Assembly (NCBI GenBank): GCA_026388315.1
Contig: JAPLKA010000055.1
Coordinates: forward strand, 1 to 64,000
Length of the DNA: 64,000 nucleotides
Direction of reading: 5' to 3'
Origin: Pseudomonadota bacterium
Lineage (GTDB): Bacteria > Desulfobacterota > Syntrophorhabdia > Syntrophorhabdales > Syntrophorhabdaceae
A program made the position numbers and the translations under genes. Position 1 is the stretch's first letter. The number at the start of each line of letters is the position of its first letter. Shown piece after piece: positions 94 through 15,122 of this stretch. The notes beneath the pieces were generated by a model, which was given only the letters and a program-made list of their open reading frames with translations, was not told the origin of the DNA and made no database searches.

Positions 94-155
94 GTATCAA
101 GTAGATGCAGCCAATCGGCCTGAAATCAGGCCTCTGGCTGATCTTTGTGTTATGT
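94..155. repeat. attC-like imperfect palindrome 1
   Basis: The sequence forms an imperfect hairpin: CAGCCA-AT-CGGCCTGA pairs with TCAGGCCT-CTGGCTG across a two-base AA turn. Outer boxes are CAA (98-100) and GTTATGT (149-155). It shares its CAGC(C/G)AATCG and GGCCTC words with the elements at 723-796 and 1282-1346, and it ends 49 bases before a gene start, as in cassette arrays. The outer boxes are not canonical, so the attC reading is an inference from the family of three plus the good site at 2664. Confidence 0.45.
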
Positions 156-203: not shown

Positions 204-470
204 ATGCCGACCATCTCTATGTTTTACGGAATCATAATCCGTATGTACTGTTCTCCGGGAGAGCATAACCCTCCGCACATTCATGCATATTACCAGGATT
301 TCATGGCAATCATTGATGTTATTGCTTGCGAGGTATCGACAGGAAATCTACCCCCAAGACAAACAAAGCTTGTTCTGGCTTGGGCAGAAATCCACAAGGA
401 CGAGCTATTGGCAGATTGGAAACTGGCCTCAAAAGGCGAACTTCCTTTTCCAATCGAGCCCTTGAGATAG
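204..470 (+). CDS. DUF4160 domain protein
   Basis: An 88-residue protein that is essentially a whole DUF4160 domain, recognised by the opening PTISMFYGIIIRMY and the H-NPPHIHAYY block near residues 21-30. DUF4160 proteins are usually paired with a DUF2442 protein, as here with the next gene 12 bases downstream, and the pair has been suggested to be toxin-antitoxin-like. The activity is not established. No good ribosome binding site precedes the ATG, which is common for the first gene of an integron cassette. It lies between two attC-like palindromes, so it could be mobile cargo. Confidence 0.85.
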   Translation: MPTISMFYGIIIRMYCSPGEHNPPHIHAYYQDFMAIIDVIACEVSTGNLPPRQTKLVLAWAEIHKDELLADWKLASKGELPFPIEPLR

Positions 471-482
471 AGGAAGGTAGAC

Positions 483-728
483 ATGTATCCACCTGTAAAA
501 AATGTAAAACCTTTAGATGACTATAAATTGCTACTTGAATTTGGAAATGGAGAACAAAGGGTTTTTGATGTCTCCCCCTATTTGAGTATTGGTAAATTCG
601 CCGAATTACGAAATCTATCCGTATTCTCTTCTGTAGCAGTCAAATTTGACAGTATCGAATGGGTTAACCATTTGGACATTGACCCAGAATTCTTATACGA
701 AAAAAGTATAAATACAAAGACCAAATAA
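483..728 (+). CDS. DUF2442 domain protein
   Basis: An 81-residue DUF2442 protein. The family pattern V-K-P-L-DDYKLLLEFGNGE-RVFDVSPYL at residues 7-34 and the closing W-D-IDPEFLYEKS are clear. An AGGAAGG ribosome binding site lies just before the ATG. It follows the DUF4160 gene closely and is probably co-transcribed with it. DUF2442 members resemble small antitoxin or NikR-N-like proteins, but no DNA-binding motif is obvious here and the role is unknown. Its TAA stop lies inside the first box of the next attC-like site, the spacing expected for a gene cassette. Confidence 0.85.
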   Translation: MYPPVKNVKPLDDYKLLLEFGNGEQRVFDVSPYLSIGKFAELRNLSVFSSVAVKFDSIEWVNHLDIDPEFLYEKSINTKTK

Positions 729-796
729 CGACCGGATGCAGCGAATCGCGTACCTCCCCCAATAAAGCAGGCCTCTCGCTGACCCACATGTTGGAA
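723..796. repeat. attC-like imperfect palindrome 2
   Basis: Left arm AAATAACGACCGGATGCAGC and right arm (750s to 796) can pair as AAC-N6-8-CAGCGA with the complementary TCGCTG...GTT. The outer boxes are ATAAC (725-729) and GTTGGAA (790-796). It shares AATCG and AGCAGGCCTC words with the other two attC-like elements. The DUF2442 stop codon overlaps its left box. The right box is not a strict GTTRRRY, so the call is moderate. Confidence 0.45.
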
Positions 797-1281
797 CCAG
801 ATGATACGGCAGAGAGTCATTGACCTCCTATGGCTGACACCTGCGGACAACGTGTCCGCAACATTGGTAGCAAACGTTGCTACTGAATTTAAAATCCCCG
901 CAAAGCCAATGCTGGCCTTGGTTTGGAGCATTGATCTTTTTTTTATTCACTGTGAATAAAAATATGGAAACCCCATGAAAAATAACCTTTGGGGGTGCCG
1001 GTGGGCAAAGAGAGGACTCATACCAATTCGCCTTCATTCATATAACTTCGTTGCCTTCGTCGTCATCTCCTCGACGTACTGAAATGTACGCCTCCGTCGC
1101 CTCCTCCTCGTCGCCTCGTTCTATCTTTGAATCCAAATTGGTATCATGGCGATAGAATCACTGGTTTCCCTCCTCCCTTCGGAAGGCGAGAGAAGAATAA
1201 AGACAAAAGACGGAATAGAAGCTATAATGAAAGGCAAAGACATGAAAGAACATGGCGATAAAGGCGAAAGACATAGAAACG
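797..1281. other. Gap without a recognisable gene
   Basis: About 485 bases lie between two attC-like sites. It contains a MITE-like element (1020-1144, listed separately) and, from about 1180 to 1280, a purine-rich stretch with repeated short words such as AAAGAC and AAAGGCGAAAGAC. Short open frames on both strands look random. If the flanking sites are attC, this would be a cassette without an intact gene. Confidence 0.5.
1020..1144. mobile_element. MITE-like element with 9-bp terminal inverted repeats
   Basis: ATACCAATT (1020-1028) and AATTGGTAT (1136-1144) are perfect inverted ends of a 125-bp unit. The interior is rich in CGTCG and CTCCTCG words and includes a near-palindrome around GACGTACTGAAATGTACGCC. 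It has no coding capacity. The structure fits a non-autonomous miniature inverted-repeat element, but no second copy occurs in this window and no target-site duplication is evident. Confidence 0.5.
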
Positions 1282-1346
1282 TTCCAACGAGTGCGTGCAG
1301 CCAATCGGCCATAAAGCAGGCCTCCCGGTGATACCCGATGTTAGCT
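1282..1346. repeat. attC-like imperfect palindrome 3
   Basis: It starts with TTCCAAC (1282-1288), then GAGTGCGTGCAGCCAATCGG, and ends with CGATGTTAGCT (R' box near 1340-1346). Inner arms CAGCCAATCGGCC and GGCCTCCCGGTG pair imperfectly. It ends 25 bases before the HD-GYP start codon, and a clear attC follows that gene, which is the geometry of a one-gene cassette. The right box differs from GTTRRRY at one position. Confidence 0.5.
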
Positions 1347-1371: not shown

Positions 1372-2631
1372 ATGCAACGAAATATTACCGTTAATTTAGG
1401 GAATCTGGTTCTTTCACTTTCCGACGCTATGGATTTGGCCAGTCCTTTATTGATACAACATCAACAAAGGACAGCGCTTGTCGTGTGGAAAATGGGGAAG
1501 GCCGCAAACCTTTCAAATGAAAGATTAGAAAAACTTTTTATAGCAGCGCTGCTTCATGATATCGGCGCTTTTTCATTGGAAGAAAAAATCTCCCTTCGGA
1601 ATTGTGAAGTCGAAAATCCCGAAGAACATTGCATTCGTGGCGAGCTTTTGCTCAATAACATACCCTGGTTAAAGGACTCGGCAAGAATCATCAGGTTTCA
1701 CCACAAAGAGTGGCAGCACTGGGGAGAGTCAATTGAAAATCCCGTTGTTCTTGAGTCACAGTTGTTATTTCTTGCCGATTATCTCGAACGCGCAATAAAT
1801 CGTGAGCATTATATTCTTCATCAACACGAAGATATTATTTCAAAGATAGAATCTTTGTCCGGCTCTTCATTGCATCCTCAAGTTGTGGATCTTTTCCTCT
1901 CGATATCTCATAGCGAAGAATTTTGGTTGGACCTGGTTTCTCCCCGATTGTATTCTATTTTACTTAATGAAGGTCCTTTCAGAAAGATAGAAATAGACTA
2001 TTCGGATATTTCTATAATAGCCGAGCTTTTTCGAAATATAATTGATTTCCGGTCCCGTTTTACTTCAACTCATTCTTCAGGTGTTGCCGCAGCCGCATCC
2101 TTGTTAGCAAAAATTTTCGGACTTACGGACGTAGAAATAGGGTTTATGGAAGTTGCCGGAGATCTGCATGATTTAGGGAAATTGGCAATTCCCAATAGTA
2201 TTCTGAATAAACCTGGAGGCCTTACAAAAGAAGAGATGTATGTTATGAAATCTCACACGTATTATACTTATCTTATAATTAATAGCATTGGGGGACTTAA
2301 GCAGATTACGGAATGGGCTGCTTATCACCATGAAAGACTTGACGGTTCCGGATATCCCTTTCATTGCATGGCAGCCGAGCTAAGTACCGGAGCCCGGATA
2401 ATGATGGTCGCAGATATATTTACGGCGCTGGCTGAAGACCGGCCATACAGAAAAGGGATGTCCAAAGATGATATTGTTCGTATTATTAAACAGTTTTCTG
2501 ATCGTAGCCTTTTGGATACCAGAATAATTAATCTCCTTTTTGAGAATTACAACGAGATTTTTTCCTATGTAGCCGAAAAACAGGCTGTTGCCAGGGAGTT
2601 CTACGAAAAACAATTTGCTTTTATTCATTAA
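1372..2631 (+). CDS. Tandem HD / HD-GYP domain phosphodiesterase
   Basis: A 419-residue cytoplasmic protein with two HD-type modules. The first has LLHDIG at about 61-66. The second is HD-GYP-like, with GDLHDLGK at 263-270 and HHERLDGSGYP at 319-329. HD-GYP enzymes hydrolyse cyclic di-GMP (or related cyclic dinucleotides) using metal ions held by the HD and HH residues, so this is probably a c-di-GMP phosphodiesterase. No receiver, PAS or membrane segment is visible. The start is supported by AGGAGA about 6 bases before ATG. It lies alone between an attC-like site and a good attC, so it may be integron cassette cargo, which would be unusually large at about 1.3 kb. Confidence 0.88.
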   Translation: MQRNITVNLGNLVLSLSDAMDLASPLLIQHQQRTALVVWKMGKAANLSNERLEKLFIAALLHDIGAFSLEEKISLRNCEVENPEEHCIRGELLLNNIPWLKDSARIIRFHHKEWQHWGESIENPVVLESQLLFLADYLERAINREHYILHQHEDIISKIESLSGSSLHPQVVDLFLSISHSEEFWLDLVSPRLYSILLNEGPFRKIEIDYSDISIIAELFRNIIDFRSRFTSTHSSGVAAAASLLAKIFGLTDVEIGFMEVAGDLHDLGKLAIPNSILNKPGGLTKEEMYVMKSHTYYTYLIINSIGGLKQITEWAAYHHERLDGSGYPFHCMAAELSTGARIMMVADIFTALAEDRPYRKGMSKDDIVRIIKQFSDRSLLDTRIINLLFENYNEIFSYVAEKQAVAREFYEKQFAFIH

Positions 2632-2663: not shown

Positions 2664-2738
2664 AGATAACAACCGCATCAACTCGGACTGGCAATTCCGC
2701 TACGCTCCATTGCCTGCCGGTTATGCGTAGCGTTAGGC
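2664..2738. repeat. Integron attC recombination site
   Basis: The 75-bp element has R'' AGATAAC (2664-2670), L'' within CGCATCAACTCGG, a variable hairpin TGGCAAT...ATTGCC, L' CCGGTTATGCG and R' GTTAGGC (2732-2738, a perfect GTTRRRY). L'' and L' pair as expected, with an unpaired extra base. This matches the architecture of attC sites of integron gene cassettes, especially those of Treponema and related environmental arrays. It begins 33 bases after the HD-GYP stop codon. No intI integrase gene is in the window. Confidence 0.75.
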
Positions 2739-2768
2739 CAATGGAGATAAACCATGAAATTCGAGCCT

Positions 2769-2789
2769 CGGGTACCCGCTTGCGGGTGC
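2769..2789. repeat. Dispersed palindromic repeat, copy a
   Basis: Contains the palindromic core GGGTACCCGCTTGCGGGT, also found near 14217, 24322 and 45329. Here it lies in the non-coding stretch between the attC site and the AlkD-like gene. Repeat spread across unrelated loci suggests a REP-like or miniature mobile element. Confidence 0.65.
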
Positions 2790-2931
2790 GGTAAAAAGCG
2801 CAGCGAAGCAGGGAGCGTAAGGTTTAATTGCGAACACGGTGAGCAACAACAGTGTTTCTGCGAATACCATATTTGGGCAACAGGCCGTTTGCTCTTGACT
2901 GGAAAGACATATCCTGGCAATACTATCTTCC

Positions 2932-3633
2932 ATGCTCGATGCGCTCAGGAGAGATGTGGAACTTCTTGCAAACCCGGAAAAGGCAAGGGTGCTCCGGCGA
3001 TTCTTCAAGACCGCCCCTGGCCAGTATGGTGAGGGCGACGTCTTTCTCGGCATCGTTGTTCCTGACTCACGCAAGATTGCAAAAAAGTACGCCGATCTCG
3101 CTTTCGAGGAGGTTAGCGCCCTCCTGAAATCAAAGACTCACGAAGAGCGGCTCATCGCTCTTTTCATCCTTATCGCACAATTTGAAAAAGGCAATACCCA
3201 AATAAAAGAGGAAATATTTCGGCTCTACCTCAAGCATACGGCATTTATCAACAACTGGGACCTTGTCGATCTTTCTGCCGAAAAGATTGTCGGCGCTTAC
3301 CTCGAAAGAAGGCCAAAAGAGATACTATATGAACTTGCACGGTCGGAAAGCCTCTGGGAGAGACGTATCTCCATCATCGCCACATTTCGTTTTATCAAAG
3401 AGGGGAAATACGAGGATACCTTCACCATTGCAAGTATCCTGCTCCGGGACAGGGAAGATCTTATCCATAAAGCAACGGGTTGGATGCTGAGAGAGGTGGG
3501 AAAACGCTGCTCGGAAGAGGTGGAGGAAACATTTTTGCGCAAACATCTCAAGGAAATGCCGAGGACCATGCTCCGCTATGCCATCGAACGTTTCAGCCCC
3601 GAAAAGAGACGTCAGTACCTTCAAAAAACGTAA
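2932..3633 (+). CDS. AlkD-like DNA alkylation repair protein
   Basis: A 233-residue all-helical protein of the AlkD/DNA alkylation repair family. Such proteins form HEAT-like repeats that wrap DNA and excise alkylated purines. The family block RFFKT-PGQYGEGDVFLGI-VP at about residues 22-44 and the following R-IAKKYADL are clear, as is the NNWDLVDLS segment. Length is normal for the family. The ATG at 2932 gives the usual N-terminus, though no strong ribosome binding site is present. It lies 194 bases after the attC site and no further attC follows it, so cassette origin is doubtful. It probably acts alone in the cytoplasm. Confidence 0.88.
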   Translation: MLDALRRDVELLANPEKARVLRRFFKTAPGQYGEGDVFLGIVVPDSRKIAKKYADLAFEEVSALLKSKTHEERLIALFILIAQFEKGNTQIKEEIFRLYLKHTAFINNWDLVDLSAEKIVGAYLERRPKEILYELARSESLWERRISIIATFRFIKEGKYEDTFTIASILLRDREDLIHKATGWMLREVGKRCSEEVEETFLRKHLKEMPRTMLRYAIERFSPEKRRQYLQKT

Positions 3634-3801
3634 ACATTTACAATTGTCTCGGGATAACCCTGGTGGCATTTCCTTTTAGGCGTCAACTCTACTCATTAAA
3701 AGGAGGGCTTTGGTGCATCTGCTATGAAAATCCCTTGTAATTTAAAGCAGATTTGTGTATTATATGGTCTCGTTTGATATCATTTTCCATGAGGAGTGGC
3801 A

Positions 3802-4857
3802 ATGTACATTTCAATAATCGGAGCCGCCGGTTCTGGGAAGACAATGCTTTTTCAGGCTTTAAGCGGCATAAAAAAAGATAATGGCATTGCCCCGAATACG
3901 ATAGTAACCGTTGATGTACCTGATGAGCGCCTTGAGAGGTTAGCTAAAACATTCAATCCAAAAAAGACTGTCCACGCACGTATAGAAATATCCGACACAG
4001 CAACGATAGAAGAAGGCGATGTAAAGAATGAAACGATTAGCCCTAAGGCAATCCAGAAAATGCGGACAAGTGATGCTTTTATCCTTATTCTGCGACATTT
4101 TGATAATGGATTACCCGTTGACCCTGTAGCTGAATTCAGGACGATTTTTACTGAGTTTATCCTTTCTGATATGGCGCAGATCGAAATACGCCTGGAGCGC
4201 ATCAACAAGCAGAGCGGGAAAAAGGATAACCCCCTTGTCCAGCAGGAAAAGGCCATGCTTGAGAAGTGCCTGGCCCACCTTAATGAAGAAAAACCATTAT
4301 CTGTCCTGCAAACCTTAAATGGAGAGGGGAAAATGCTTCGCGGCTTCCAGTTCCTCTCGCAAAAGCCTATGATGTTGGTGGTGAATTGCGATGAAATGAC
4401 AGTTGATGAAGCTGAAACAATCCTGTCAGACATTAAACTGTTATTGCCCGGCGATATCCCCATTATTGTTGCTTGCGCCAAACTTGAAGCGGAACTGGCG
4501 CTTATGCCACCCGAAGAGTGTGCTGATTTCATGATAGAATACGGCATTAAGGAAACGATACGTGACCGCATCATACAGCTTGCCTGCCGGACGCTGGGCT
4601 TGATCTTTTTTTTAACGGTCGGGGAAGATGAATGCCGTGCATGGCCGATAAAAAGAGGTATGAGTGCCCAGGATGCAGCAGGGACTATCCATACAGATTT
4701 TTACAATAAATTTATCCGTGCTGAAACAGTTGGCTATGATGATTTTATAAAATATGGTAATTTTGCGGAATGTAAAAAGGCAGGGGTGTGGCGTCTCGAA
4801 GGGAAGGAGTATATTGTCCGGGATGGTGATATCATTTCCATCAGAGCAGGCAACTAA
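3802..4857 (+). CDS. YchF/Obg-like GTPase with C-terminal TGS domain
   Basis: About 351 residues. The N-terminus has a Walker A (GAAGSGKT, about 7-14) and the C-terminus a TGS-like segment (RGMSAQDAAGTIHTDFYNKF...). The order GTPase, helical insert, TGS is that of the YchF/OLA1 family, ribosome-associated ATP/GTPases, but the sequence is divergent and usual YchF motifs are weak, so it is not called ychF. ATG 3802 was chosen because GAGGAG lies 5 bases upstream; a GTG at 3796 is in frame. The gene meets the adenylate cyclase tail to tail with a 4-base overlap. Confidence 0.82.
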   Translation: MYISIIGAAGSGKTMLFQALSGIKKDNGIAPNTIVTVDVPDERLERLAKTFNPKKTVHARIEISDTATIEEGDVKNETISPKAIQKMRTSDAFILILRHFDNGLPVDPVAEFRTIFTEFILSDMAQIEIRLERINKQSGKKDNPLVQQEKAMLEKCLAHLNEEKPLSVLQTLNGEGKMLRGFQFLSQKPMMLVVNCDEMTVDEAETILSDIKLLLPGDIPIIVACAKLEAELALMPPEECADFMIEYGIKETIRDRIIQLACRTLGLIFFLTVGEDECRAWPIKRGMSAQDAAGTIHTDFYNKFIRAETVGYDDFIKYGNFAECKKAGVWRLEGKEYIVRDGDIISIRAGN

Positions 4858-7602: not shown

Positions 7603-9678
7603 TTAATTATAAAAATTCTGGTTTTCAACCTTAAGGAATTCTTGCGTTATTTTTTGCAGTTGAGAAACAGCGAGGAACGCCTCTTTCAGCAATTGTTTTT
7701 GTCTTGCGGTAAGCGTTGCCGGATCGATGCGGTTGCTGAAGTCTCTCCCACGGTCTCTATCGTTCAAATCGTTTCTGATTTTCAGGGTGAGAAAGGTTTC
7801 GAAAGACTGTTCTAAAAATTCCGCCAGATCGGTTTTTATTATTGTATCCTTGTTCAGTTTTTTTATCCTCTCTAATGTATTCGTCTCAAAGATGCCTTGC
7901 TGAAATGCAAGCATCTTTACACATGTATTCAGGGGGAGGAGCCCATAATTTTTTATATTGAGCGTATTTTTATATTTACCGTTTTTTTCTACAATAAAAT
8001 TCTTAAAAAACCCCAATGGCATAGGAATAGAGGTAATTACCTGGGCCAGCAACTTCAGGAATAGCTGATTTTCTTTGATTAACTTCATCATATGCGATTT
8101 CAGCTCAAATTCAAGAAATTTGTTTCCATATATCGTTCTGAAATCAAAAAAGACGAATATATCAATAATCTCGTTCTCTGAGAGTGACCTTGAGAGTATC
8201 CATTCTGCCGTCCTTTTCTTCCACTGTATTATACTCCCGGAATATTTGGGGTTTGTTGCCATAACGTTACCCTTGCATAAAGGGAAACCGCACTTGTTTA
8301 ACGCATCTGTTACTTGATGGGAAAATGTTTTAAAATATTCTTCGGTGTCCCCGGAGGGAGAATCGAGATAGATTATCGCATTGTCCTGATCTGTGAGCAG
8401 TGTTTGTTCTTTTCTCCCTTCGCTGCCCAATCCTAACCATGCGTATGAAGACGGGGGATAACCGAGATCTTTTTCGACTAAAGCGATTACCCTTTTTACA
8501 ATCTTATCATTAAATTCACTTATAATTTTACACACGTGCGATGCAAGAGCGCCATCAGCCATTAAAATAGCCAATACCTTTTCCACCCCGGACCGTACTG
8601 CGTCCAATTCGGAGATGCTTGGCGCCTCATCAATATTTTTCAACAAAGACAAAACCTCAATGCCTTTATGCTTCAGGATATCAAATGTGGTAAGTAATCC
8701 CACCGTTTTTCCTTTGTCCAGTACGATGAGTTGATTGGTTTTGTGCTTAACCATTTCGTGAATGGCATCATAAAGGAAGCTTTCTGCATCGATTGTTTTG
8801 TATTGTTTTTCCATTATTGTCTCTATCGGTTGCTGGGGGTCCTTTCCTTCCAGTAAAACCGCTTTGACAATATCTCTATAACCAAGAATGCCTTTTGTAG
8901 CAGTCGAATCGTCGGTTACTATGATCGTTTCTAACCCATTATCCAGGAGTTCTCTGGCGGCCTCTTTCGTTGTTGCTTTATGGCTACAGAATATTTGAGC
9001 TGAAGGAAGCATATCTTTCACCTGTTTTTTATACAGGGTGGACTCCACATTTACAGTGCTCGTATTCGAAACAAGAAACTCCTTATAAACCTTGCTCATT
9101 CGATAATTGAGCAACCGGTGAAAGAAATTATAAAAAATTGAATGTTTTTGAACCATACGGAGGAAAGCCTCTCTTCTCTGGCTCAAACACAATGAGTCCT
9201 CTATCACTTCGTACTTTGGAGTCCTTGGAGAATCGGAGAGCATAGGCATCTCACCAAAACATTCACCTTCACCGAGAAACCCTATAATAATCTCTTTGCT
9301 ATTTTCCTCCATGCAAGCCTTTACGAGGCCGCTTTTCACTACAATAAATTTGTCAGACCCTTTATCCTGTGAGAATATAATCTTTTTAGGTAAAAAAGAT
9401 TCCCATTCCATGCTTTCTGCAACCTCTTCAAGGTCAGCCCTTGCAAGAAGATTAAAAGGCATATTATTTTCAAGAAAATTTACTTTGTTTTCATACCTGT
9501 CCATCTCAAGAGCTTTCTGAAATGATAACGCCTCGTGAAGGGTGTTTTTTTGTATTGCACCGATATCGATAAGTATTTCCCCGATGTTTTTATTGTTTGC
9601 ATTTTGGATTGCTAAGGCATTTACGATGGATACTTCTTCGACAAAACCCTGTTTAAAAAGTATTTCCCCAACTTTCAT
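7603..9678 (-). CDS. Cyclic-nucleotide-binding / CBS / DUF294 nucleotidyltransferase-like protein
   Basis: A 691-residue soluble protein. In order: an N-terminal module (1-60) with the repeated G-IL---G-I pattern seen in MshEN/T2SSE-N domains, some of which bind c-di-GMP; a cyclic-nucleotide-binding domain (about 75-190) with FGEMPMLSDSPRTP; a CBS pair (about 225-340); a DUF294 nucleotidyltransferase-like domain with GLGSEGRKEQTLLTDQDNA at 416-434; and the DUF294 C-terminal helical domain. This DUF294 type resembles GlnD/signal-transduction transferases, but its substrate is unknown. It lies upstream of the cyclase on the same strand, about 160 bases apart, which suggests a cAMP-responsive pair. 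ATG 9678 is the only sensible start. Confidence 0.88.
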   Translation of the reverse strand: MKVGEILFKQGFVEEVSIVNALAIQNANNKNIGEILIDIGAIQKNTLHEALSFQKALEMDRYENKVNFLENNMPFNLLARADLEEVAESMEWESFLPKKIIFSQDKGSDKFIVVKSGLVKACMEENSKEIIIGFLGEGECFGEMPMLSDSPRTPKYEVIEDSLCLSQRREAFLRMVQKHSIFYNFFHRLLNYRMSKVYKEFLVSNTSTVNVESTLYKKQVKDMLPSAQIFCSHKATTKEAARELLDNGLETIIVTDDSTATKGILGYRDIVKAVLLEGKDPQQPIETIMEKQYKTIDAESFLYDAIHEMVKHKTNQLIVLDKGKTVGLLTTFDILKHKGIEVLSLLKNIDEAPSISELDAVRSGVEKVLAILMADGALASHVCKIISEFNDKIVKRVIALVEKDLGYPPSSYAWLGLGSEGRKEQTLLTDQDNAIIYLDSPSGDTEEYFKTFSHQVTDALNKCGFPLCKGNVMATNPKYSGSIIQWKKRTAEWILSRSLSENEIIDIFVFFDFRTIYGNKFLEFELKSHMMKLIKENQLFLKLLAQVITSIPMPLGFFKNFIVEKNGKYKNTLNIKNYGLLPLNTCVKMLAFQQGIFETNTLERIKKLNKDTIIKTDLAEFLEQSFETFLTLKIRNDLNDRDRGRDFSNRIDPATLTARQKQLLKEAFLAVSQLQKITQEFLKVENQNFYN

Positions 9679-14632: not shown

Positions 14633-15122
14633 GCCGTAAAAGCTGTTTTGAGTTTTGAGTGTTGAGTTTTGAGTTGAAAAAACCTAATAATAATATTGGC
14701 TTAAAGTGCTGTTTTTGGGGCAATTTGTAACCTGTCTGCCACAACGCAGGCACAGGCAGGCAAAGGGGTACGATGTGGGTAGCCCTACGAGCGATTTGGT
14801 GGCTTATGATAGGAGGCCCGAAGACCTGCCAGAGGAAGTTGCTCCAACGGTTGGAGCAATGGTAGAAATCACCGGAAAGTCAATACAGACCTTGCATAGA
14901 GAGATTTCACTTTTGAAACTTTTTGATGAGATTCAAACAGTCTTTATCCATGTTACATAAATTATCTGCGGCTTGAAGAGATAAAGGATGTCCACGCATT
15001 CTCGTTGTGCCTATTCCATCCCGCCTCATCTTCATAGCTTTCCCATCGAGGTCATGGTATAAGTAATCTTTAAAGAGATCGTAACTCTCTCACAAAATGA
15101 GATATATAATGGGGGTAATGCT

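Follow-up and report, generated by a model that had tools for sequence, protein, structure and literature searches.

The site at 2664-2738 of the window (the whole stretch of DNA analysed, bases 1-64000 of contig C55) is a genuine integron attC. It lies at the inner end of a cluster that represents a familiar, ordinary type of mobile gene array: small, partly decayed, and cut by the start of the contig. We consider it very probable that the first 2.9 kb represent the distal (attI-remote) end of a cassette array whose chromosome has an integron integrase gene of its own at another location. Contig C55 belongs to a 3.8 Mb assembly of 131 contigs, with 100% completeness and 3.7% contamination. 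The attC is found 2.7 kb from the start of this contig, and the array points inward from base 1.

Structure and covariance of the attC site

When compared with the attC consensus that we used (R' GTTRRRY, R'' RYYYAAC), the site contained all of the attC parts, in the layout AGATAAC-AAC-CGCATCAACTCGG-...-CCGGTTATGCG-TAGC-GTTAGGC. The R' box, GTTAGGC, is a perfect consensus match, and the R''-like box, AGATAAC, keeps AAC and carries two mismatches, both outside AAC. The L'' arm, CGCAT-C-AAC-T-CGG, pairs with CCGGTTATGCG, with two extra bases on one side. Folding of the bottom strand gave a single attC-type hairpin (-13.2 kcal/mol) in which the extra bases are bulged. The recombination boxes, pairing L arms and inner hairpin described in the first-pass annotation were therefore present at exactly the positions it gave, and the element does directly follow the HD-GYP gene, starting 33 nt past the stop codon at 2631. 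The site looks usable, and strand exchange is predicted after G2732. The attC of the blaOXA-2 cassette, from a class 1 integron, shares both the L-arm pattern TCAACTCGGAC ... GCCGGTTA and the R' box GTTAGGC, whereas the terminal loop, the spacers and R'' differ (AGATAAC here, GCCCAAC there).

Two covariance models were built. Model R1 was trained on 20 attC-type sites, all from outside the source genome: some came from the class 1 resistance cassettes aadA1, aadA2, aadB, blaOXA-2, aacA4 and another, and the rest were sites near intI of other named genomes, collected by a motif and arm-pairing finder. Model R2 was trained on 26 attCs from the source genome, with contig C55 held out. E-values from both models are rough. 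Searching both strands of the 64 kb with R1 returned 2664-2738 (E 5.5e-6) and no second match in the window, even at E 10. There was also no R1 match at E <= 0.01 in the only two relatives of the set that consist of a single contig, of about 2.8 and 3.7 Mb. R2 scored the same site similarly and placed it second, after 94-155 and ahead of 723-796 and 1282-1346 (Table 1). A covariance-model search had been proposed as a check on the annotation, and with our own models sub-threshold scores at all four positions were not the outcome; the held-out models bear out an attC reading that was made by eye. An Rfam search of the window returned no attC-like family.

It is very improbable that this site and its neighbors are chance hairpins or ordinary terminators taken for attCs. 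The fold energy of 2664-2738 is by itself unexceptional (z -1.3), and a bare motif scan produced several spurious matches in the 64 kb. However, two models used with held-out data support the attC assignment, the sites stand after genes, and the arms covary across sites. In particular, 96.6% of the L-arm cells of the in-genome attCs are paired, and the covariation score over their whole structure was 0.376 compared to 0.146 for shuffled sequences.

Table 1. Features at the start of contig C55, in window coordinates
Feature	Coordinates	Strand	Evidence or remark
attC1	94-155	+	R2 39.2 bits, E 1.4e-6 over 64 kb; R1 7.4 bits
DUF4160 protein, DhiT-like toxin, first gene of cassette A	204-470	+	PF13711, E 9e-23
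DUF2442 protein, DhiA-like antitoxin, second gene of cassette A	483-728	+	PF10387, E 3e-13
attC2	723-796	+	R2 32.2 bits, E 5.3e-5 over 64 kb
52-aa ORF, cassette B	801-959	+	resembles helix-turn-helix region of a multi-copy ParB-like family
Imperfect 27-nt inverted repeat, MITE-like, inside cassette B	1020-1144		repeat search
attC3, decayed	1282-1346	+	R2 11.4 bits, E 0.28 in 6 kb, E 3 in 64 kb
Cassette C, predicted extent	1341-2732
HD-GYP protein, 419 aa, N-terminal HD/HDOD-like region	1372-2631	+	PF13487, E 4e-42
attC4	2664-2738	+	R1 33.5 bits; R2 33.8 bits; fold
attC4 R''-like box	2664-2670
attC4 L''	2674-2686
attC4 L'	2717-2727
attC4 R'	2732-2738
Remnant, truncated next cassette or other	2733-2880		between attC4 and chromosomal sequence; unmatched in congener G002
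Chromosomal flank	2881-3660	+	96% identical to congener G002 contig 49
AlkD-type DNA alkylation repair gene, within flank	2932-3633		PF08713

Cassettes and boundary of the cluster

The cluster runs in the order attC1, cassette A, attC2, cassette B, attC3, cassette C, attC4, remnant, chromosomal sequence. It comprises three gene-then-attC cassettes, carrying a DhiTA-like pair, a ParB-like fragment with a MITE-like insert, and the HD-GYP gene. Three attC-like elements had been claimed upstream of attC4; R2 upheld two of these, attC1 and attC2, but the third, attC3, is decayed. attC1 has R' GTTATGT at 149-155, a degenerate R'' (GTATCAA, without AAC) and a good L-arm hairpin, its bottom strand folding at -14.2 kcal/mol (z -6.0). 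attC2, with R' GTTGGAA at 790-796, overlaps the stop codon of the DUF2442 gene. attC3 has R' GTTAGCT at 1340-1346, mismatched L arms and, by folding, no stable hairpin. Because the attC1 R'' is without AAC and attC3 is decayed, present mobility of the array is doubtful.

The two genes of cassette A recall dhiTA of Dickeya dadantii, a toxin-antitoxin system in which a DUF4160 gene precedes a DUF2442 gene, toxin first (PMC8198452). The cassette shares this domain pair and the toxin-antitoxin order, but the product of the first gene scored 76.4 bits against the NCBIfam equivalog model NF048015 (toxin_DhiT), under its curated cut-off of 100. We therefore call the pair only DhiTA-like.

Copies of the short ORF of cassette B were found by nhmmer after attCs on contigs C11, C54, C84 and C128, and the ORF also matches within a ParB-like gene (L138:4845-5780). 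Another fragment of the ParB-like family is present at 14706-14960 of the window. In congener G002 this family is highly multi-copy, with the full gene region matched at dozens of places. For this repeated sequence of cassette B, an integron-encoded sRNA was considered at first, but recognition of the ParB-like reading frame led us to abandon the idea. A weak Rfam match to Qrr at 841-944 (20 bits, cut-off 50) was rejected because it lies inside the ParB-like gene fragment.

In cassette C, the translation contains HDLGK and HHERLDGSGYP, fitting the motifs HDxGK and HHExxDGxGYP, so that by domain and motifs the product is a putative, presumably active, HD-GYP c-di-GMP phosphodiesterase. The first-pass suggestion that this gene is cassette cargo is supported. 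A relative with 78% amino acid identity occurs only in G031, a member of another genus, and the two congeners have no copy as close as this one. DNA homology to G031 is limited to 1358-2616, inside the predicted cassette, which is consistent with a chromosomal-type gene having been taken up into a cassette, the direction being unproven. No attC adjoins the G031 homologue, which leaves transfer of the gene as a cassette no more than a possibility, and HD-GYP homologues in relatives are also without a nearby attC. Since attC3 is decayed, the HD-GYP cassette has probably become fixed or moves poorly. Our literature search on HD-GYP genes in integron cassettes found nothing direct; the HD-GYP and DhiTA-like cassettes add to the known integron cargo.

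Homology to congener G002 resumes at 2881 with 96% identity, placing the end of the cluster near 2880, after a remnant of 148 nt. We looked for attG-type insertion through empty sites in relatives, for the C90 cluster and eight pooled junctions, and none was clean; one junction proved to be a shared cassette rather than an empty site. Beyond the flank, 3796-4857 encodes a 353-aa protein with a YchF-type GTPase C-terminal domain and a weak GTPase-domain score, which may be a divergent paralogue.

Integrase and related attCs elsewhere in the genome

A profile search found no IntI over cut-off on C55. The first-pass description of a site without integrase is thus correct for this contig, but it does not extend to the genome, since a complete IntI is encoded on contig C46 (8311-9759; TIGR02249, 370 bits, cut-off 265). 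Its catalytic residues and IntI-specific insert align with those of IntI1. The C46 array, with attCs at C46:1052-7995 of the same family as those of C55, leaves via the left end of its contig. At the genome level, then, there is an intI with the IntI-specific insert beside attCs, as expected of a complete integron, and with an integrase and the same attC family on C46 the C55 cluster is not integrase-free. A finding of no integrase in view needs to be checked against the whole genome. In the two congeners, whose completeness is only 86% and 92%, no IntI over cut-off was found.

With R2 at E <= 0.02, the source genome contained about 54 attCs in 24 clusters on 21 contigs. Most clusters are no more than about 5 kb away from the end of their contig; farther inside are those on C90 and one on C128 (18-26 kb from the ends) and one on C9 (8.7 kb). 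Among the 60 genomes searched with R1 (the source genome and relatives), 36 contain attCs, marking this uncultured lineage as rich in them. A cassette of contig C25 (L140) recurs at 91% and 86% in two genomes of another genus (loci L199 and L200). Homology begins with the GTT of the attC before the cassette; in one of the two genomes it extends into the next attC and stops there. Recurrence across genera indicates that cassettes move, or have moved, in this genome family.

A near-identical, palindromic, ORF-less element of 137 nt was seen at attC junctions on several contigs (C46 (L009) at 1951-2088, 4670-4806 and 7934-8067; also L136, L139, L141, L146 and L172). In the copies read, it comes directly after the G of the attC R' box, like a mini-cassette.

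CALIN or split array

The three sites at 94-155, 723-796 and 2664-2738 fit the CALIN criterion of at least two attCs within about 4 kb, and the contig has no intI. Unlike a standard CALIN, the cluster touches the contig start and an intI exists elsewhere in the genome, so it may be part of a split integron; in draft assemblies, integrons are known to be broken up and CALIN counts to be inflated (PMC9024848). The distal-array reading has against it that C55 contains neither attI nor integrase and that the left side of the array is lost at the contig start. Because the window starts at base 1 of C55 and the array runs inward from there, assembly may be responsible for the lack of an integrase.

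We put at about even the chance that the cluster is a true CALIN at its own chromosomal site, separate from the C46 integron, which arose when cassettes inserted off-site or when a former integrase was lost. Separate clusters do exist in this genome, since C90 and C128 carry clusters at 18-26 kb from any contig end with no intI over cut-off. Contigs that an array enters and contigs that an array leaves also occur several times each, giving more ends than one array has, and in Xanthomonas CALINs occupy fixed chromosomal sites while intI is elsewhere (PMC12444791). On the other hand, the contact of the window cluster with the contig start means that its own independence cannot be seen, and instead of a clean empty site there is the remnant at 2733-2880 between attC4 and chromosomal sequence. 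Somewhat less probable, though a serious possibility, is that the C46 array simply ends on C55 and was broken up in assembly by near-identical cassettes. The orientations are joinable, with the C46 array leaving at the left end and the C55 array entering at the left end, and the attCs of both contigs form one family. The closeness of most clusters to contig ends (about 5 kb or less) also favors a broken array, and the 137-nt mini-cassette, with its many repeats, would break assemblies. However, the same kind of end is found on several other contigs, making the C55-C46 pairing one of many, and the printed C46 and C55 ends have no obvious overlap.

The reading of these 2.9 kb as the distal part of an array implies that the bottom strand of each attC should form a hairpin, to be cut by IntI beside the conserved G of R'. 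This would allow cassettes to be inserted or excised, either by IntI supplied in trans from C46 or by that of the same broken array. We infer this action of IntI on the C55 sites. The sedentary chromosomal integrons of Vibrio and Xanthomonas likewise have many cassettes, related attCs, toxin-antitoxin and gene-less cassettes, and one intI, but here the attCs occur on 21 or more contigs instead of forming one continuous array. A more general proposal, which we regard as rather unlikely, is that, in place of one superintegron, this genome family distributes its cassettes among numerous small arrays, each at a chromosomal site of its own, and that a single IntI carrying a duplicated core-binding domain acts on all of them in trans.

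The C46 IntI is 482 aa long and has an additional domain of about 85 aa at its N-terminus, which is common to it and 12 aligned relatives (L017-L032) from several phyla. Profile comparison matched this domain to the core-binding domain (E 6.7e-6, probability 85%), and it is predicted as four helices like the core-binding domain (pLDDT mostly near 90; overall pTM 0.47). Based on these predictions, the extra part resembles a second, duplicated core-binding domain. The longer Deltaproteobacterial IntI of clade 15 were reported to be extended by a fusion of about 120 aa (Nemergut et al. 2008, PMC2426708). The C46 protein can be likened to this group by its greater than usual length, but its extra part resembles a second core-binding domain; the extra length has been known since 2008, whereas its reading as a duplication may be new.
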